From a virus, in the IMG/VR virus record IMGVR_UViG_3300032288_005189, positions 1 to 21,233 of that record: a stretch of 21,233 bases of DNA, one strand, 5' to 3'. The notes beneath the pieces were generated by a model. It had not been told where the DNA came from. It did not search any database and saw only the letters and a program-made list of their open reading frames with translations. Shown here piece by piece: positions 266-17,660 of this stretch (positions are counted from its first letter, which is position 1; each line of letters starts with the position of its first letter). The position numbers and the translations under genes are program-made.

Positions 266-871
266 TTATTTATTGTATTTTTTACTATTATTTACTCGTT
301 TAGTCCATTTTAAATTTTCTGGTGTGGTTGCTTCATATGGGGAAAGTCCTTCTTTAAAACATTGTGATCTAGGTTTAACATGGTCTAATGTAGGGTAGTT
401 TTTGTCACTGTAATGGAGTTTTAAATTATCTTTTATATGTTCTCCATCTATGTAATCATATCCATCCCAAGTTTCAAGCATTTGCTTTCGAATTTTTCTC
501 GTTAACCAATCACACCTTCTCCAATATTGTTTCCAGTCGTAATTTTCTATAATATTACCATTTTTCTTTCGAGTTTCCAAACCTTTTTTCCAAGATTCTT
601 CACTCCAACTTTTTCTCATATGGGAGGCTCTTTCAGTTCTTTCTTCTCCCATGTTTTCTTTAACCCAATTCCCCTGGCATTTATTGGAGCAAAATTTGTT
701 TTGTTGGCTAGGGTAGAATCGAATTAAAGTATTACATTGAGTACACTCTATATAATTTCTTTCTTTGGCTCTACTTTTTTGTCTACATTCCTTTGAACAA
801 TATTTGCTATAAGGTCCATTAGATTTATAATCTATATTACATTCTTTACATGTTTGTTTATACTTACTCAT
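266..871 (-). CDS. Free-standing HNH homing-type endonuclease with two zinc-finger modules
   Basis: A 201-residue protein with two N-terminal Cys4 zinc-ribbon modules (C8, C11, C25, C29 and C43, C46, C61, C65), a basic middle region (residues 75-130), and a C-terminal HNH nuclease core: T-L-D-H164 for the first histidine, E-N186-L-K-W for the central asparagine, and N194-N195-S-K near the end. Such proteins nick or cut DNA and spread their own gene between related phages. It lies directly after queE. Start chosen at the ATG at 871, which lies 7 bases downstream of a conserved 15-bp promoter-like element and has no Shine-Dalgarno sequence. The element implies transcription independent of queE. 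Confidence 0.88.
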   Translation of the reverse strand: MSKYKQTCKECNIDYKSNGPYSKYCSKECRQKSRAKERNYIECTQCNTLIRFYPSQQNKFCSNKCQGNWVKENMGEERTERASHMRKSWSEESWKKGLETRKKNGNIIENYDWKQYWRRCDWLTRKIRKQMLETWDGYDYIDGEHIKDNLKLHYSDKNYPTLDHVKPRSQCFKEGLSPYEATTPENLKWTKRVNNSKKYNK

Positions 872-923: not shown

Positions 924-1709
924 TCAAACTCCGCGACGGGTGTCGAAAGCTATAATGTGGTCTCTACCAGTCATATTATATCCTTTTTCAGCACACATAT
1001 CAAATACAAGTGGGTACATTTTAATTAATTCCTCTCTTGTATCTCCAGCTGGCATGATGTATGTTTTTTGCTTTGGGATATCTAATGCAATTCTAAATGC
1101 TTCAATCTCATTTAAATTTTCCTCGGTACCATCCCACACTGGTTTATAATGATAATCTGTGTGATAAGCTAATGTTTGTTTGATTGTATCCATCTTGAGA
1201 CGGAATTTATTATGTTGATCAATCATTTTTTGGTCCACAATCGCTCCTTGAGGCGTAGCAACACCAAGTACGGGTACAGAATTAGCAAACTTTGGACTGA
1301 GAGATATAAGATCAATAGGATAGTCAGTGGCAAGGAAATGAGATCCTTCAGTTTCGATAGTAATAAGTATTCCTCTTTCATGAGCAAAATGGGTTAATTC
1401 GTTTACTAATTTAGGCCACATCGTAGGACTTCCGCCGGTAAGCATCATCTCCTTAATATGGGGATTTTCATCGTATATTTTAACGACATCATCAAAACTA
1501 AATATTGCTTTTTCTGGGTGGATAGATGTATAGAAAGAATCGCACCATCCTCCTTCTCCAAAGTAACAACGATGTGTGCATCCTGTTGTGCGGACTGCTA
1601 TAGTAGGGCGACCAAACCTACTCCCTTCAGATTGTACGCAACGATAAAGTTCAATAATTGCTTGTGTTTTTGCCTTTTCGGCTTCGGTCATTCTTGGAAT
1701 TTTGTTCAT
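924..1709 (-). CDS. queE: 7-carboxy-7-deazaguanine synthase (QueE-like radical SAM enzyme)
   Basis: A 261-residue radical SAM protein. QueE converts 6-carboxytetrahydropterin to 7-carboxy-7-deazaguanine (CDG), the ring-contraction step of preQ0 synthesis. Visible landmarks: Q26-S-E-G near the N terminus, the FeS cysteines C44, C48 and C56, the SAM-binding T91-G-G-S-P, and I-E-T-E-G at about 118-122. The cysteine spacing is CX3CX7C rather than CX3CX2C, the residue after the third Cys-Asp is serine (C-D-S, usually C-D-T, whose Thr binds magnesium), and TGGSP replaces TGGEP. Length is usual for the family. Its ATG overlaps the TGA of the upstream HNH gene (ATGA), so it is probably co-transcribed with that endonuclease. 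It is separated from queC and queD by a terminator but should work with them. Confidence 0.88.
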   Translation of the reverse strand: MNKIPRMTEAEKAKTQAIIELYRCVQSEGSRFGRPTIAVRTTGCTHRCYFGEGGWCDSFYTSIHPEKAIFSFDDVVKIYDENPHIKEMMLTGGSPTMWPKLVNELTHFAHERGILITIETEGSHFLATDYPIDLISLSPKFANSVPVLGVATPQGAIVDQKMIDQHNKFRLKMDTIKQTLAYHTDYHYKPVWDGTEENLNEIEAFRIALDIPKQKTYIMPAGDTREELIKMYPLVFDMCAEKGYNMTGRDHIIAFDTRRGV

Positions 1710-2151: not shown

Positions 2152-2427
2152 CTATTTTCTTACAAATCTAATTCGACCATGTCTTTTTACACCTTCACGA
2201 TTCACTTCATTTACTTTGTGGAAATGTTTTATTCCTCCTAACGGATAATTTACATCGGCTTTATCAATAACTTCTTTCAACCAAGGCATCCCTATTGAAA
2301 TGTACCATTTAAAAAATTGTATATTTAAACTATTAGACCCTCTAGATTTCCAAAAGCGTTTAAACCAATCTCTTTTTTCAATTTGAACCCAAAATACCCA
2401 GTCAACTTTTTCTAATTTTGACTCCAT
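2152..2427 (-). CDS. Protein of unknown function, last gene of the deazaguanine operon
   Basis: A 91-residue protein I do not recognise. It is basic and aromatic-rich, with many tryptophans in the first half (W10, W13, W21, W26) and a basic C terminus (residues 76-91). No cysteines, membrane segment or known motif are visible. Its ATG lies 16 bases inside the end of the thioredoxin gene, so translation is probably coupled, and its stop is followed closely by a strong terminator. A nucleic-acid-binding role would suit the charge but is only a guess. Confidence 0.55.
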   Translation of the reverse strand: MESKLEKVDWVFWVQIEKRDWFKRFWKSRGSNSLNIQFFKWYISIGMPWLKEVIDKADVNYPLGGIKHFHKVNEVNREGVKRHGRIRFVRK

Positions 2428-2660
2428 AAACTTTTTATCTGTGATTCTGTTAAAACTCCGGCTTGCTTTGCTACAGCTTGCCCATTATCTACTACAACTA
2501 ATGTAGGTATATTTCTTACACCATATTCGGCAACCAATTGAGGACTCGCATCTACATCAATAAATTCAACCGGAATTTCACGGCTTACTTGTTCCATTAT
2601 TGGTTTGAAATTTCTACACGGACCACACCATGCTGCGCTAAAGTAAAGTATTTTTTTCAT
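2412..2660 (-). CDS. Thioredoxin-like protein
   Basis: An 82-residue, minimal thioredoxin fold. The redox motif W11-C12-G-P-C15 is intact and is preceded by the usual beta strand (residues 3-8); the cis-proline loop N50-I-P52-T is present. It is shorter than typical bacterial thioredoxins (about 105 residues) and similar to phage thioredoxin/glutaredoxin-size proteins. It probably acts in the cytoplasm as an electron donor; the class I ribonucleotide reductase encoded elsewhere in this window, whose NrdA ends in a CxxC tail, is the obvious candidate partner. It lies in the deazaguanine operon and its ATG overlaps the stop of an upstream mini-ORF (ATGA). Confidence 0.88.
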   Translation of the reverse strand: MKKILYFSAAWCGPCRNFKPIMEQVSREIPVEFIDVDASPQLVAEYGVRNIPTLVVVDNGQAVAKQAGVLTESQIKSLWSQN

Positions 2661-2728: not shown

Positions 2729-2837
2729 TTTTTTCTTTGTTAAGTTCGTCTTGAAAGATTTTTGCTATTCTAGGGCTAAAAGGACCTATTGTAATTGGTG
2801 GTGGAGGTGGGATAACTTTTTTCTTTTTATTCCCCAT
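2718..2837 (-). CDS. Small proline-rich basic protein, 39 residues
   Basis: The frame starts at the ATG at 2837, inside the last codons of queD (11-base overlap), and ends at 2718. The N terminus is lysine-rich (K4-K7) and followed by a polyproline run (I9-P10-P-P-P-P-I-T-I-G). No known domain. The gap between queD and thioredoxin would otherwise be about 170 bases of unexplained sequence in an operon with almost none, which supports a real gene. Function unknown. Confidence 0.5.
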   Translation of the reverse strand: MGNKKKKVIPPPPPITIGPFSPRIAKIFQDELNKEKNGK

Positions 2838-3429
2838 AACTTGCTGAATTTCTTTCGTGTTCGTAGACCTCTACTTTTGTTGCTTTAACTCTACCTTTTG
2901 TTTCTTCTTTTAAAAATTCATTTATTACATAATATAAATGTTCAGCAAATTTTTCACACCCAGTTGCTGCTAAAATTCTTAATTGGATTATACCATCTGC
3001 ATCCATTTGTTTAAATTTCTCTAAATATGGATCATCAATGGCAACAATTGTAGTGTGATCTAGTAAAAATGTAAAGTAGTCTTTTGGGGACATACCTGCA
3101 ATTTGGGTTTTTGCACGTTTCATACCTCCAAAATCCCATACCCAATTTCTTTCATCTAGTTCACCCTCAAACCATACTCTAAATGATACTGCGTAACCAT
3201 GTAAGAATTTACAATGAGTTCCTTCTGCTTTCCATTGACGGAAACATGCTGAGTAACCGTCAAATAATTTTGTTGATTTAAATTTTTTCATTTTATTTTT
3301 CTTTTCCATAACTTTTTGGTGTAATTCCCAATCTAATATACAACTATTTTTCCAATTTACCCAATCCTCTTTAGACATTGAATCTAAAGCAGAATCTAGT
3401 TCTTTGTTTAATTTGTCCCAATTAGCCAT
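2827..3429 (-). CDS. queD: QueD-like 6-carboxytetrahydropterin synthase
   Basis: A 200-residue member of the 6-pyruvoyl-tetrahydropterin synthase/QueD fold. QueD turns dihydroneopterin triphosphate into 6-carboxytetrahydropterin, the QueE substrate. Recognisable parts: C73-x3-H77-G-Y79 (family C-x3-H-G-H), D99-F-G-G-M-K, the L-D124-H125 active-site pair, G157-C-E159-K-F-A-E in place of P-T-x-E-N, and V-E-V-Y-E190 near the end. The first 50 residues are an extension absent from short bacterial QueD. Of the three zinc histidines only H77 is clear: the third is Tyr79 and the first aligns with C62/F63. The catalytic Cys, Asp-His and Glu are kept. It starts 2 bases after the queC stop. Fold confident; exact reaction less so because of the altered metal site. 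Confidence 0.8.
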   Translation of the reverse strand: MANWDKLNKELDSALDSMSKEDWVNWKNSCILDWELHQKVMEKKNKMKKFKSTKLFDGYSACFRQWKAEGTHCKFLHGYAVSFRVWFEGELDERNWVWDFGGMKRAKTQIAGMSPKDYFTFLLDHTTIVAIDDPYLEKFKQMDADGIIQLRILAATGCEKFAEHLYYVINEFLKEETKGRVKATKVEVYEHERNSASYGE

Positions 3430-4315
3430 TATGTGTTTCTAATACTTTTGTTACTTCATTTACTACGTGTTCCCATGTTACAGGACCATTTTCATTAGCA
3501 TAACGTACAGGATCAGGACGACCTAATTTAATAAACGCCTCTACTCGCTCAACTGATGATGCTGATTTATAATCAGAGAACCAATCGGAGCAATCAACTA
3601 TTTCATCTTCATTATTTACAAATGCTAAATTTAGGTAGATAGGTTTATATGAAGTATTTGTACGTTTGTATACTTCATAAAAATCTAAATTTAATTCTTT
3701 ACATAATACTTCCCCATCTTGTAAAATAGTAAATTTATCTCCTTCAAGATATGGTGTAAAATAACCTACTTTTTCAGACCCCCAATTACCAATTCTAAAT
3801 GCTGCATCATCAGCATCTCTAAATTCTTGACGACAATCAGGATAAATTGCATGATCACCCGCATGAATACCCATTGCTATATCACATTGTTCACCTGTTT
3901 TATCAGCAATTGAAAGTGCAACTGCTTGAGTAATTGAAGCAAATATTTTGTTACGATTTGGAACAACTGTTGCTTTCATATTTTCTTCAGCATAATGTCC
4001 TTCAGGTACATCATCTCCACCTGTTACAAGTGCTGAATTAAGTAGGTCTGTTAAGCCATCTAATTTGATTTGGCGGTAATTGATAGGGTTGTAATTTAAT
4101 CCAGTTACTGTAATGGTTCCTAGTTGATCTATTTCTGTTTTTTCAACATTACCATTTAGATAATCTACTAACGATTCAGCTCGTTCAAGTTCAACTCGAT
4201 GCTTTTGTCCATAATCAAATGAAATTGCTGTTACCGTGTCGTATTCTTTTAAACAACGTAACAAAAGTGTACTGGAATCCATTCCTCCAGATAGGGATAT
4301 CACAACGTGTTTCAT
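3422..4315 (-). CDS. queC: QueC-like 7-cyano-7-deazaguanine (preQ0) synthase
   Basis: A 297-residue PP-loop ATPase. QueC uses ATP and ammonia to turn CDG into preQ0 through an amide intermediate. Visible motifs: ATP-binding S9-G-G-M-D-S-S15, D34-Y-G-Q-K-H, V117-V-P-N-R-N-K-I-F125, and G149-I-H-A-G-D-H-A-I-Y-P-D-C-R. The C terminus keeps the family frame (T219-N-T-S-Y and R257-V-E-A-F...G-R-P-D-P) but all four zinc cysteines are replaced, by S222, D248, S251 and S254. It is longer than bacterial QueC (about 220-230), with insertions near residues 80-112 and 226-247. It overlaps the upstream 47-residue gene (ATGA). The neighbouring QueD and DpdA-like genes point to DNA modification. Confidence 0.88.
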   Translation of the reverse strand: MKHVVISLSGGMDSSTLLLRCLKEYDTVTAISFDYGQKHRVELERAESLVDYLNGNVEKTEIDQLGTITVTGLNYNPINYRQIKLDGLTDLLNSALVTGGDDVPEGHYAEENMKATVVPNRNKIFASITQAVALSIADKTGEQCDIAMGIHAGDHAIYPDCRQEFRDADDAAFRIGNWGSEKVGYFTPYLEGDKFTILQDGEVLCKELNLDFYEVYKRTNTSYKPIYLNLAFVNNEDEIVDCSDWFSDYKSASSVERVEAFIKLGRPDPVRYANENGPVTWEHVVNEVTKVLETHNG

Positions 4316-4861: not shown

Positions 4862-5656
4862 TTATAAGTTATTTATTTCTCTAAATTTTCTAATATTATA
4901 TTCTATAAGTTCAGTTTCAATAAAATCTTCACTTACATCTTGATATTTGTTCATGTTGGCTACTGGTTTTGGAGATATACCTAATTGATGATATACTCTT
5001 TTTTCTATACCCGCCATAACGGGGTTTGAAGTGTCAATTGATTCTATAAATTTAAAGTTTTTATACATTCCAAATTCAATTGGAGAAGCAGTTCCAAGTA
5101 AATGTACACGATCAAAATCACTTAAAAGTTTATTTTTATATAAAGAAGAAATAGCCATAAATCTACCTACAGCTTTTCCAAAATCTTTATCTGGGTGGGG
5201 GCAAAGTTCATGGTAATATGAAGCACCATATGAATATGCTATTTTCTTATATCCTAAATCTTTATATGTTCTTGTACATAATATAGCTTCATGTAAATCT
5301 TTTGCTTGAACTACTGCTACTTTTTCAACACCTTCAGGTAATTCAACTTTTGACCATTGTCTTGCATTTACAACTGAAGCTGTATAGTCTTCCCATACAT
5401 CAGGTACTATAAATTCATTTGGTTTGATTTCGTTTACCCAATACATTAAACGTTTTGTATTATATGCTTCGCCTAGTTCATGGAGGGAATTGTCCATTAC
5501 AATATAGCGTCCCATTTTCTTTGACTCGTAGAAGAAATTGCGATATTCTTCATTTTCGTCCATTAAATGGGGTAAGAGGTAATCAAAATCATTGAACTCT
5601 CGACTTTTTTCAAGTAGGCAAAATGGTACTTCGTGTGATACTTTTACTTTTTTCAT
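4862..5656 (-). CDS. dpdA: DpdA-like DNA deazaguanine transglycosylase (TGT superfamily)
   Basis: A compact 264-residue protein with the TIM-barrel signatures of the tRNA-guanine transglycosylase superfamily: V53-M-D55-N-S-L-H-E-L-G (the TGT general acid/base Asp region), V84-P-D86-V-W-E-D (substrate Asp), A140-Y-S-Y-G-A, V184-H-L-L-G-T-A-S-P-I-E-F, and S206-I-D208-T-S-N-P (nucleophile Asp region). The C-terminal zinc cluster of tRNA-acting TGT (three Cys, one His) is not visible. Phage DpdA proteins exchange guanine in DNA for preQ0 or related bases, and linkage to queC, queD and queE supports that here. Start chosen at ATG 5656; an in-frame ATG at 5674 overlaps the promoter -7 element, so it is unlikely. 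Confidence 0.78.
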   Translation of the reverse strand: MKKVKVSHEVPFCLLEKSREFNDFDYLLPHLMDENEEYRNFFYESKKMGRYIVMDNSLHELGEAYNTKRLMYWVNEIKPNEFIVPDVWEDYTASVVNARQWSKVELPEGVEKVAVVQAKDLHEAILCTRTYKDLGYKKIAYSYGASYYHELCPHPDKDFGKAVGRFMAISSLYKNKLLSDFDRVHLLGTASPIEFGMYKNFKFIESIDTSNPVMAGIEKRVYHQLGISPKPVANMNKYQDVSEDFIETELIEYNIRKFREINNL

Positions 5657-5671
5657 AACTTTAAATTTTAT

Positions 5672-5703
5672 CAAATATAATAACTAAATTTTGTACCTCC
5701 AAA
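5672..5703 (-). promoter_or_regulatory. Bacteroidota-type promoter (TTTG-N20-TATATTTG) for the deazaguanine operon
   Basis: On the minus strand TTTG (5703-5700) is followed after 20 bases by TATATTTG (5679-5672), matching the Bacteroidota primary sigma factor consensus TTTG-N19-21-TAnnTTTG. Transcription would start a few bases before the ATG at 5656. The -33 box lies inside the last codons of the GIY-YIG gene. It is the only good match of this type seen between genes in the window and suggests host polymerase drives the operon. Confidence 0.65.
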
Positions 5704-6289
5704 TATATCCAACAGAAGTAGCATTTTCTCCTTTTCTTAAAGCATTATTAATTGCTGTAGGGTTCCCACCAACACTTCGGGCTGCTTCTTCAATGCTGGG
5801 GTGTTCTTGGATAAAATTCCCTTGTTTATCATATTGGAGGACAGGTTTGTTATTAGATGGGATAGGTTTTCCTTTTTTAGATTGGCTTATTTTAAGTTTA
5901 TTTTCTTCACTTCGTGTTTTACCTTTCCAATGAGAATTTTTTCTTTTACCTACATTCAATTTTCCTTTTTCGCTAATAAGTTTTCTGGTGTTTTCATTAT
6001 GGGCTTCTACCCCACCTCCTCCAGGGTTTGAATTTAAACCTTCACTATATGAGTTATAGAATTCAATCCAGTATTTTTCTCGTTGAGCTAACAAAATTTC
6101 AATATCTTCTATCACTTCAAATGTATGGTTTTCAAAACCGTATATTTCAAAGGATTGATTTAATTTTGGTTGTTTTTCAGTTTTACTACTATTCTTGTAA
6201 TTCATCCATCTAACATGGATATTTTGTGAACATCCTATATAAACTTCTCCTTTTGGGTTTGTAATTTTATAAATTCCACTTTTTTTCAT
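5684..6289 (-). CDS. GIY-YIG homing endonuclease with NUMOD3 and NUMOD1 modules
   Basis: A 201-residue free-standing endonuclease. The N-terminal GIY-YIG nuclease shows G5-I-Y7, Y17-I-G19, R27 and the catalytic Glu in Q69-R-E71-K-Y-W, followed by N86-S-N-P-G-G-G-G. DNA-binding modules follow: a NUMOD3-like segment (H120-W-K-G-K-T-R-S-E-E...S-K-K-G-K, 120-141) and a NUMOD1/IENR1-like helix-turn-helix (148-198, with L-Q-Y-D...S-I-E-E-A-A-R-S-V-G...I-N-N-A-L). The layout resembles phage homing endonucleases of the I-TevI/Seg type. It lies between a small Bacteroidota-phage gene and the dpdA-like gene, with its own conserved promoter-like element 8 bases upstream of the ATG. Confidence 0.92.
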   Translation of the reverse strand: MKKSGIYKITNPKGEVYIGCSQNIHVRWMNYKNSSKTEKQPKLNQSFEIYGFENHTFEVIEDIEILLAQREKYWIEFYNSYSEGLNSNPGGGGVEAHNENTRKLISEKGKLNVGKRKNSHWKGKTRSEENKLKISQSKKGKPIPSNNKPVLQYDKQGNFIQEHPSIEEAARSVGGNPTAINNALRKGENATSVGYIWRYKI

Positions 6290-7957: not shown

Positions 7958-8776
7958 TTACAAATAGTTAAATTTGTTGAAATACCAAGCGTAATGTTGT
8001 TTAATTTTATCGCAATTATGGAATCCTAAAATACTTGTATAATCTTGAGATACTGGTTTGATTGTTGGTTGTATCTCGTGGTCTCCAAATATTCCATGTA
8101 TAACATCATTTTCGTGTGTTAATTGCTTAACATTGTTAAAGTCGTGTTTATAATATGGAATTTCTAGATAATTGTATATACGTTGCATTTCTGCCTCTGG
8201 GTTTGTTGTAAAATCCTCAAAGCGGATAAATAGGAAATGACTATCGTATCCTTGTACATGGGAATCATATAACCACTCTAGAGCAGGTCCAATTGGGGGT
8301 GCAACAGAAAAATGTTGCATACGTGAATCTGTTGTCATGTTTTGGAGTTGAGCTCCGTTTACTATTTGAGGGTCTTTGTGTGGGTTTTTTCTGTAATTTT
8401 TTTCCATGGAAGCAAATATACCTCTCAAATCTCGAACCATTACTATGGCTTTTGCTCCTGGTTCAATAAAATTGGCAAAACGAAAATTGCCTGTCCATGC
8501 TCTACTTTTGTCTATAACATAAGGACGATCAGTTAGAGCATCAAAATATCCGTATAAACCGGCTCTACAAAAACCATGGAATGCTTTTTCCATTTCTTTT
8601 GGATCTTGTGCTTTGAAAGCATCTCCAGTTGAATAAATTGAACGTGCTGTTAATAGAAATTCTACTACACCAGAGGTTGGTGTTGCATATATTTCTGGGT
8701 TTTGCATTAACACATTTTGTAATAACGTTGAGCCTGCTCGTGGGAGCGAGGCATTGAAAAAAACCTTTTTTACCAT
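7958..8776 (-). CDS. PAPS-dependent sulfotransferase
   Basis: A 272-residue sulfotransferase-fold protein. The 5'-phosphosulfate loop is S10-L-P-R-A-G-S-T-L-L-Q-N and the 3'-phosphate-binding region is I111-V-M-V-R-D-L-R-G-I-F-A-S-M-E-K. The C-terminal half contains the usual F-I-R-F-E-D-F segment (about 183-190). These enzymes move sulfate from PAPS to a hydroxyl or amino group on sugars, lipids or proteins. No signal peptide is evident, so it acts in the cytoplasm. It lies 5 bases after a tail fibre gene and 3 bases before DUF2061. The acceptor is unknown; a tail protein or host surface glycan is plausible given the neighbourhood. Confidence 0.88.
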   Translation of the reverse strand: MVKKVFFNASLPRAGSTLLQNVLMQNPEIYATPTSGVVEFLLTARSIYSTGDAFKAQDPKEMEKAFHGFCRAGLYGYFDALTDRPYVIDKSRAWTGNFRFANFIEPGAKAIVMVRDLRGIFASMEKNYRKNPHKDPQIVNGAQLQNMTTDSRMQHFSVAPPIGPALEWLYDSHVQGYDSHFLFIRFEDFTTNPEAEMQRIYNYLEIPYYKHDFNNVKQLTHENDVIHGIFGDHEIQPTIKPVSQDYTSILGFHNCDKIKQHYAWYFNKFNYL

Positions 8777-8781
8777 AAATT

Positions 8782-9921
8782 TTATTGAATCATTAACAAT
8801 CTATATGTATTTCCATTTAAGTTAATTGCTAAAGTATGAGTTGAACTTGCACTTACTTCAGATGCAATTGGTCCAAGTGGATACGCTGGGGAACCTAAAA
8901 CAAGTTGTCCGTTATCTGTTGCTGTAGCTCCTGTACCTAAAATAAGTGAGCCGGAAAAATCACCTGATTGGGCATTATATCCTAAAGCAATGTTATAGGC
9001 TCCTATTGAGTTATTAGCTAAAGCACTTTGACCTAAAGCAATGTTGTGGTTTCCATATCCATTGTTTTGTAAAGCATTTAAACCTAAAGCAATGTTATAA
9101 GCTCCTGTTAAGTTATTAGCTAAAGCATTATTACCTAAAGCAACGTTGTAATTTCCTGTTGTGGTATTAGTTAAAACACTATTACCTAAAGCAATGTTGC
9201 CTACTCCTGTGCTATATGTATAGCCTCCATAACCATCAGATATTTTTTGTCCTGTCAATGCACTGGGCCCTATTGCAATATTTTGTTTAGAGGATTGAAA
9301 GTATTTTAATGTATCAGATCCTAGGGCAATATTGCCAGTAGTATCAATATTTGATTCTAAAGCATTTGGACCTAAAGCAACATTACTGTTTCCTATTGTA
9401 TTATTAAGTAAAGCCGCTTGACCTAAAGCAACGTTGCTAGTTCCTGTTGTATTATACAATAAGGCACTCACACCTAAAGCAATATTGTAATTTCCTGTAT
9501 TGTTTAGTAAAGTATTTGGACCTATAGCAACATTATATGTTCCTGTTGTATTATTTACTAAAGTATTGTTACCTATAGCAATATTATTTTGTCCTGTTGT
9601 ATTATCGCGTAAAGCATTTTGACCTATAGCCGTGTTATATGCTCCATATGTATTTGAAGTTAAAGCATTTGGGCCTAAAGCAACATTATAGTTTCCTGTT
9701 ACATTATTAGCTAAAGTATTTGGTCCTAAAGCAATATTAGTTGAATCATTACCTGCACCTAAACTAGCATTTAAGTTATTGATTGTACCTGAAAATGATC
9801 CAGTTAAGCTATTAATTGTAGCATCTACTGTGTTTCCTAATCCATCTTGGATTATACCTCCATCTATTTGGAGTACTCTTTGGTATGATTGACTTATTGG
9901 TTGCCCGGTAAAATTTGCCAT
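8782..9921 (-). CDS. Tail fibre-like protein with YadA-head-like 17-residue repeats
   Basis: A 379-residue protein. Residues 1-60 form a likely attachment region containing S39-L-T-G-S-F-S-G-T-I. Residues 61-325 hold about 15 repeats of roughly 17 residues with the core N-[IV]-A-[LI]-G-x-x-[AT]-L-x-x-N-x-x-G-x-Y, the pattern of trimeric autotransporter head domains, also found in phage fibres as a left-handed beta-roll. The C terminus (326-379) has L-V-L-G-S-P and ends A-I-N-L-N-G-N-T-Y-R-L-L-M, like other phage fibre ends. No peptidase domain is seen. It probably forms a trimeric receptor-binding or decorating fibre. The start at 9921 shares M-A-N with the other fibre gene in this window. 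Confidence 0.85.
   Translation of the reverse strand: MANFTGQPISQSYQRVLQIDGGIIQDGLGNTVDATINSLTGSFSGTINNLNASLGAGNDSTNIALGPNTLANNVTGNYNVALGPNALTSNTYGAYNTAIGQNALRDNTTGQNNIAIGNNTLVNNTTGTYNVAIGPNTLLNNTGNYNIALGVSALLYNTTGTSNVALGQAALLNNTIGNSNVALGPNALESNIDTTGNIALGSDTLKYFQSSKQNIAIGPSALTGQKISDGYGGYTYSTGVGNIALGNSVLTNTTTGNYNVALGNNALANNLTGAYNIALGLNALQNNGYGNHNIALGQSALANNSIGAYNIALGYNAQSGDFSGSLILGTGATATDNGQLVLGSPAYPLGPIASEVSASSTHTLAINLNGNTYRLLMIQ
8947..9741 (-). repeat. About fifteen 51-bp coding repeats in the fibre gene
   Basis: Degenerate tandem units of about 51 bases encode the 17-residue NIALG-type repeats; on the plus strand CCTAAAGCAA recurs in most units. One unit near the middle is enlarged by a glycine/tyrosine-rich insertion (G-Y-G-G-Y-T-Y-S). 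The repeats are close enough in DNA for slippage or recombination to change fibre length. Confidence 0.85.
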
Positions 9922-16964: not shown

Positions 16965-17660
16965 TTATATTAATTTATTACTTTTATTTCTATTTCCAAT
17001 TTGATCTTTGTATCCAAAACTTTCTGCTATTTCTGTTGTTTTAAATAAAGGTTGTGTATTCTGATGGTTAAATGCTTTATATATGTTTTCTTCTTGGGTT
17101 AAGTCAAAAGTAGAAAGGGGGATTTTGTGATCTATTTCCCAAATTACACCATAATTTCCCCAACTCATTTCTTTTAAAAACATATTTTCTAAATATACAA
17201 TATATTCTTTAATAGAACAACCTAAATATTCAATGGTAGATTCACTTTTTCTTTCTTTTAAATGATAGCTTATCATACTTCCTATAGAATCTTTTATTTT
17301 ATATTCTATATTGTTTTGTCTTTTTTGTTTAACATATTTTCTATCATATTCCCTTCGTTTGTTTTTATTTTCAGGGATTGACATAAATTTTTTAAATGAA
17401 TTTTTTTTAATTTCTTTGTGTCGTTCTTGATTATTTTGTATCCAATTTTGAGTAGTTTCTACTAGTTTTTCTTTATTTGATTTGTTCCACTCTCTACATT
17501 GAGTATAAACTTTTTCTTTATTTATTGTTTTATATTGTCTATCATATTCTTTTTTGCAACTTTTACACATACTTTCAAATCCATCTTTAGATAGTTTTCT
17601 TTTATGAAAGTTGGTTGGGTTAACTTCAAATATATTTTCACATTTTATACACGATTTCAT
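16965..17660 (-). CDS. Free-standing HNH endonuclease between the helicase and nrdB genes
   Basis: A 231-residue protein. A Cys4 zinc motif is at the N terminus (C4-x2-C7 and C32-x2-C35), a long lysine-rich linker follows (40-125), then I143-E-Y-L-G-C-S-I-K-E-Y and the HNH core W174-E-I-D177-H178-K-I-P-L-S-T-F-D-L with H199-Q-N201-T-Q-P-L-F. The arrangement is that of phage HNH homing endonucleases. The gene starts at ATG 17660, 8 bases after the conserved promoter-like element, and ends 5 bases before nrdB, so its transcript would also cover nrdB and nrdA. Insertion beside ribonucleotide reductase genes is a common habit of phage homing endonucleases. Confidence 0.9.
   Translation of the reverse strand: MKSCIKCENIFEVNPTNFHKRKLSKDGFESMCKSCKKEYDRQYKTINKEKVYTQCREWNKSNKEKLVETTQNWIQNNQERHKEIKKNSFKKFMSIPENKNKRREYDRKYVKQKRQNNIEYKIKDSIGSMISYHLKERKSESTIEYLGCSIKEYIVYLENMFLKEMSWGNYGVIWEIDHKIPLSTFDLTQEENIYKAFNHQNTQPLFKTTEIAESFGYKDQIGNRNKSNKLI

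Follow-up and report, generated by a model that had tools for sequence, protein, structure and literature searches.

The gene at 3422..4315 on the minus strand of the viral DNA analyzed here (21,233 nucleotides, hereafter the window) quite probably codes for a functional QueC-type enzyme whose zinc knuckle has given way to a zinc-free form of that loop, as judged from the sequence and a predicted model. We also lean towards a wider view: that zinc-free QueC is a widespread, unrecognised and functional preQ0 synthase, which arose at least twice, needs zinc for neither of its reactions, is the sole QueC of Poseidoniales, some planctomycetes and a Thiotrichales bacterium, and is used by many phages for DNA base replacement.

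The gene starts with ATG and encodes a 297-aa protein, annotated as a zinc-less QueC-type 7-cyano-7-deazaguanine synthase. It matched PF06508 with 121.2 bits (E 5.7e-35), where the Pfam gathering score is 22 bits, and phrog_1550 (“QueC-like”) with 1.5e-38. Its PDB matches were QueC 2pg3 and 3bl5. The score against the equivalog model TIGR00364, 122.8 bits, lies below the curated cut-off of 150.3. Flavobacterium phage immuto is the closest isolate, at 82.7%. The ATP-binding motifs were described as intact in an earlier note on this DNA, and they are: SGGMDS (9–14), YGQKHxxE (35–42), VPNRN (118–122) and YPDC (158–161) make up the ATP and substrate sites, and the zinc-loop tyrosine is kept as Y223. 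The protein has the whole set of canonical QueC motifs (SGGxDS, YxQxHxxE, VPxRN, YPDC and the loop Tyr), which is kept across its clade. The AF2 model, built on an alignment of 64 sequences, has a pLDDT of 89.3 and a pTM of 0.89. When it was compared with the PDB by Foldseek, QueC 3bl5 and 2pg3 ranked at the top, followed by Cap9 (9nto). The TM score to 3bl5 was 0.76 by target length (E 1.7e-10), as for a QueC fold. An insert at about residues 226–248 is predicted to form a beta-hairpin. The best supported assignment from sequence is that of a PF06508 member that would work like QueC, outside both the zinc criterion and the equivalog cut-off.

The earlier note had proposed that all four zinc cysteines are replaced, and the alignment bears this out. 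When R257 is used as the anchor of C-x2-C-x2-C-x2-R, residues D248, S251 and S254 fall on the Cys positions, and S222-Y223 aligns with the cysteine of the S-C-Y motif. In an alignment with zinc-type QueCs, the four columns were Cys in 42 of 42, and the window clade has S, D, S and S. The C(x)8CxxCxxC zinc-binding motif of canonical QueC is absent from the window protein. We scanned viral contigs with this protein and found 597 relatives, the best 80 of which were kept, giving 83 viral sequences for comparison. In this set (best 80 of 597), S222, Y223, D248, S251, S254 and R257 are invariant (83/83), as are SGGMDS, YGQKH, VPNRN and YPDC, apart from one M12L. Among the relatives kept, the serine codons are of both kinds, with TCN/AGY counts of 75/8 at position 222, 79/4 at 251 and 65/18 at 254. 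Serine was therefore retained at the three positions through repeated codon change. Such mixed codons are as expected under long purifying selection, and would reflect neither chance nor an error in a single sequence. A bacterial relative used as the query brought in about 80 more viral QueCs, which also contained no zinc motif, and a zinc-type relative from Bacteroidetes used as the query returned few viral matches. Among the viral relatives, neither the length nor the sequence of the insert between P225 and D248 is constant. C242, which lies inside this hypervariable insert, is not conserved.

The minus-strand order of the surrounding genes is queC, queD, thioredoxin, queE, with a dpdA-type gene 0.5 kb upstream. 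QueD (6-carboxytetrahydropterin synthase; 2827..3429, minus strand; PF01242 2.3e-14, phrog_2389 9e-36) has a start that overlaps the stop of queC. QueE is encoded at 924..1709 (minus strand; phrog_2076 1.1e-45, TIGR03365 1.7e-14). The DpdA-type DNA guanine transglycosylase lies at 4862..5674 (minus strand; phrog_19058 1.6e-38), and its start is probably the ATG at 5656, not the TTG at 5674. It is about 37% identical to the Campylobacter CP220/CP21 proteins and matches the “DNA guanine transglycosylase” of immuto. By structure, its AF2 model (pLDDT 92.6) resembles TGTs as well as DpdA (7ui4), which inserts preQ0 into DNA. Cui et al. 2023 reportedly dealt with DpdA3. The thioredoxin (2412..2660, minus strand; WCGPC; PF00085 1.7e-17) might reduce QueE or ribonucleotide reductase. 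Near 81 related queC loci, with flanks of up to 6 kb each (more for immuto), we found DpdA in 56, QueD in 51, QueE in 44 and thioredoxin in 55. The window thus holds QueD, QueE, QueC and DpdA of the 7-deazaguanine DNA modification set. FolE was not found in the window, which is a fragment, and was found in its relatives: it is encoded by immuto, a complete phage, and by 4 of 7 long related contigs, and DpdA is also encoded elsewhere in them. The DpdA profile matched immuto, the FolE-bearing long contigs and Campylobacter CP21, with no match in Iggy.

Several other features of the region were recorded. The QueD at window 2827-3429 is a variant that lacks two of the three canonical zinc His: YSxxF stands in place of FxAAH and LHGY in place of LHGH. 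An invariant His lies beside its catalytic Cys (HC). The same variant occurs at 5389-5877 of the Thiotrichales locus L104 and in about 99 viral loci, and is common to phi38:2, RHEph06, HD01 and Poseidoniales. The idea of a wholly zinc-free pathway was rejected, because phi38:2 has this QueD variant together with a zinc-type QueC, one phage with zinc-less QueC has canonical QueD, and the phage FolEs retain their Cys/His motifs (MCSHHH, NCVSCRG). ORFs resembling homing endonucleases, HNH or GIY-YIG (NUMOD1), are interspersed among the modification and nucleotide-metabolism genes of the window (266-871, 1706-2107, 5684-6289 and 16965-17660). A sulfotransferase-family protein is encoded at 7958-8776 (PF13469 4.8e-16). 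Long degenerate GNxNVALGxxAL repeats at 8782-9921 resemble the head repeats of trimeric surface proteins and probably belong to a tail or capsid fibre.

Zinc-less QueC is also found in cellular genomes. Our scan of a genome collection recovered it from Poseidoniales (marine group II archaea), from planctomycetes including Pirellulaceae, from a Neomarinimicrobiota MAG and from Thiotrichales bacterium 19S9-11. In the archaea and planctomycetes it has the pattern TxTSYxPDxxGRSSGxSGADVER, where S, S, S/T and D mostly stand in for the four cysteines. It was the only full-length QueC in 8 Poseidoniales, 5 planctomycete and 1 Thiotrichales genomes, although many of the cellular genomes compared are MAGs of uncertain completeness. 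TGT was present in all 14 of these genomes but one archaeal MAG, and QueF (above cut-off) and QueA were present in the five planctomycetes and the Thiotrichales. Exactly one QueC match was obtained in 55 of 60 Poseidoniales genomes, at 110-139 bits. As none of these scores reaches 150.3, the cut-off of TIGR00364, the proteins may be overlooked in automatic annotation. The zinc cysteines were absent in 30 of 30 Poseidoniales QueCs read; most archaeal loci have queE right beside queC, and queD was found in all three archaeal genomes checked. In one planctomycete order, 56 of 57 other genomes had a full-length QueC of 210-260 bits, which was zinc-type in 30 of 30 read. The zinc-less form thus substitutes for the zinc-type enzyme in a planctomycete minority. 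The Thiotrichales QueC (L104), the most revealing of these cases, has the SDYKSAS motif of the window clade, with queD and queE placed divergently beside queC, next to gpsA, on a bacterial chromosome. This genome has no other full-length QueC, and TGT, QueF and QueA are present. A YhhQ-type transporter, which could import preQ0, lies near its queF, and such a transporter was found in 5 of 7 bacterial genomes tested. No YhhQ salvage transporter was found in two of the planctomycetes with zinc-less QueC (G012, G014).

Many Poseidoniales QueCs carry a methionine sulfoxide reductase B domain as a fusion (L129:6001-7104, with PF01641 at 8.5e-44; L108, L110, L115-L119 and L219-L248). In each of three MAGs there are two distinct QueCs, of which one resembles those of Poseidoniales or of phages: G008 (L185, L186), G015 (L143, L184) and G004 (L187, L188). 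These are probably mixed bins. The second copies in G008 and G004 were set aside, as they appeared to be foreign or viral contigs mixed with the canonical QueC.

A maximum-likelihood tree of 115 QueCs required two changes of zinc status, both forced by well-supported branches, although branches are long for some rows and the bootstrap was not yet entirely stable. The Thiotrichales QueC grouped with the phage clade with 100/100 support. The second zinc-less lineage consists of the QueCs of Iggy, RHEph06, R5C, HD01, ZHS and a Stenotrophomonas phage, and adjoins the zinc-type QueC of CAjan. Its replacement motif is SHT(A/S)YDGxYPPxxxDHAxxLRA (Iggy, L087; RHEph06, L094; also L091, L093, L095 and L097). 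As forced by this tree, the zinc site would have been lost twice, independently. The Iggy-type lineage also carries an invariant H223 (RHEph06 numbering), which is new compared with the zinc-type QueC of CAjan.

If the zinc ligands had moved, as the earlier note had allowed, other Cys or His residues in the insert or elsewhere would hold the metal. We consider this very unlikely. C205 is Cys in 82 of the 83 viral sequences (best 80 of 597 kept), and C144 is Cys in most of them, as such a site would require. However, while the 19 viral-type sequences compared all share C205, no more than 23 of 46 cellular zinc-less sequences do; C144 is Cys in none of those 46, and C144 and C242 are lineage-specific. 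H39, H107, H151, H155 and C161 lie in or around active-site motifs and are about equally kept in zinc-type QueCs, so they provide no substitute site. A comparison of each alignment column with 42 zinc-type QueCs led us to reject relocated ligands: there is no clade-specific conserved Cys/His set, the insert has no conserved ligand, and the four alternative Cys/His residues in the inserted segments that the earlier note named as its own refutation are absent at the sequence level. It is still less credible that the loss of the hallmark metal motif marks a degenerate, inactive protein retained for some other reason. Across the 83 viral relatives (best 80 of 597 kept), the catalytic motifs vary little or not at all, and the replaced residues are strongly selected at the codon level.

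The earlier note also suggested a related reaction, and here the DNA bases reported for phages are informative. Rosebush and CAjan DNA contains dPreQ0 (PMC6884629), and both are of types with a zinc-retaining QueC. In PMC11008142, which cites Olsen et al. 2023, Iggy DNA is described as dPreQ0. PMC8306585, citing Crippen et al. 2019, gives 100% dADG for CP220 and CPt10. The QueC of Campylobacter phage CP21, a relative of the dADG phages, retains the zinc cysteines. The equation of zinc loss with an amide stop therefore fails both ways, since CP21 (dADG type) keeps zinc and Iggy (dPreQ0) has lost it, and zinc status does not predict nitrile or amide. A changed reaction is accordingly not borne out as a consequence of zinc loss, and QatC and Cap9 keep their cysteines. 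An amide stop in the window phage itself is possible, if rather unlikely: QueC would convert CDG to ADG, DpdA would insert ADG, and the phage DNA would carry dADG. Beyond its own group, the window DpdA has its nearest match in the CP220-type phages (∼37%), to which PMC8306585 ascribes 100% dADG, and the window proteins that were scanned gave no recognisable QueF or amidotransferase. On the other side, the zinc motif of CP21 QueC means that dADG is possible without zinc loss, the Thiotrichales and planctomycetes have the zinc-less enzyme as their sole QueC beside QueF, which uses the nitrile, and phages of the zinc-less Iggy type are reported as dPreQ0 (PMC11008142). Equally hard to credit as an inactive protein is one that conjugates CDG to a protein or another acceptor, as Cap9 and QatC do. 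Among PDB folds, Cap9 (9nto) comes next after the QueC chains, but Cap9 and QatC retain the zinc cysteines, the window neighbours are queD, queE and dpdA with no CD-NTase or QatB partner, and the cellular relatives are the sole QueC in genomes with tRNA-guanine transglycosylase.

A dispensable zinc site, the remaining suggestion of the earlier note, agrees with the two independent losses and with zinc-less proteins as the sole full-length QueC in Poseidoniales, five planctomycetes and the Thiotrichales, nearly all with TGT. That an archaeal order and some bacteria have only a zinc-less QueC argues that the zinc is structural and dispensable. We therefore favour a working, zinc-free QueC. In this enzyme, a loop formed by S222, D248, S251 and S254 with the beta-hairpin insert would take the place of the zinc knuckle. 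QueD and QueE would make CDG, which the window QueC would adenylate and, with ammonia, turn first into the amide and from there into preQ0. In ordinary QueC, the zinc would be structural, outside catalysis and replaceable by polar contacts. In Libby et al. 2026 (PMC13329287), Y35, R99, Y131 and Y189 are essential in E. coli QueC; their window counterparts are Y35 (YGQKH), R121 (VPNRN), Y158 (YPDC) and Y223 (TSY). The neighbouring DpdA-type transglycosylase may exchange guanines of the phage DNA for the QueC product, and the exchange may protect the DNA against host nucleases. The product of the window QueC is presumed to be preQ0, and the DNA base could be either dPreQ0 or dADG. Against preQ0 synthesis by the Iggy-type QueC, the host of Iggy could supply preQ0 by its own enzyme.

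In Libby et al. 2026 (PMC13329287), QueC is defined by the zinc motif, as one of two hallmarks, together with the catalytic motifs; loss of the catalytic signature within PF06508 is read as loss of preQ0 synthesis; missing zinc motifs are reported for the LarE and GMP synthase clusters only; and the archaeal clusters 7, 8 and 10 are left unanalysed. In the literature covered, which is partial, we found no published report of a zinc-less QueC with its catalytic motifs intact. A functional zinc-free form would mean that the metal is structural, and would offer a natural set of substitutions with which to probe the role of zinc. It would also correct annotation, since the Poseidoniales QueCs all score below the NCBIfam cut-off. 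Absent zinc ligands alone are insufficient to infer a new reaction.

Compared with known systems, the PP-loop domains of LarE and GMP synthase share the fold and likewise have no QueC zinc motif, but they lack the QueC substrate motifs that are present in the window protein. Cap9 (type IV CBASS) and QatC share the QueC fold and ATP site, but they keep the zinc cysteines, use CDG to modify protein and have no DpdA/QueD/QueE context. The window protein does not fit this type, as it has no zinc cysteines and neither a CD-NTase nor qatA/B/D was found among the window proteins scanned. Canonical QueC (E. coli; B. subtilis, 3BL5; Pectobacterium, 2PG3) has in common with it the PP-loop fold, SGGxDS, YxQxHxxE, VPxRN, YPDC, the tyrosine of S/C-Y and the pathway neighbours queD and queE. 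The window protein differs by having S, D, S and S for C(x)8CxxCxxC, by its greater length with insertions, and by its sub-threshold equivalog score. The Iggy/RHEph06-type QueCs have also lost the four zinc cysteines, kept the catalytic motifs and lie in queD/queE/folE clusters, but they carry another replacement motif and group with zinc-type CAjan, not with the window clade. The QueCs of Poseidoniales and some planctomycetes belong to the same larger clade as the window protein, with S, S, S/T and D for the cysteines. In contrast to the window form, their Asp is fourth instead of second, they have no hairpin insert, and in Poseidoniales they are often fused to MsrB.
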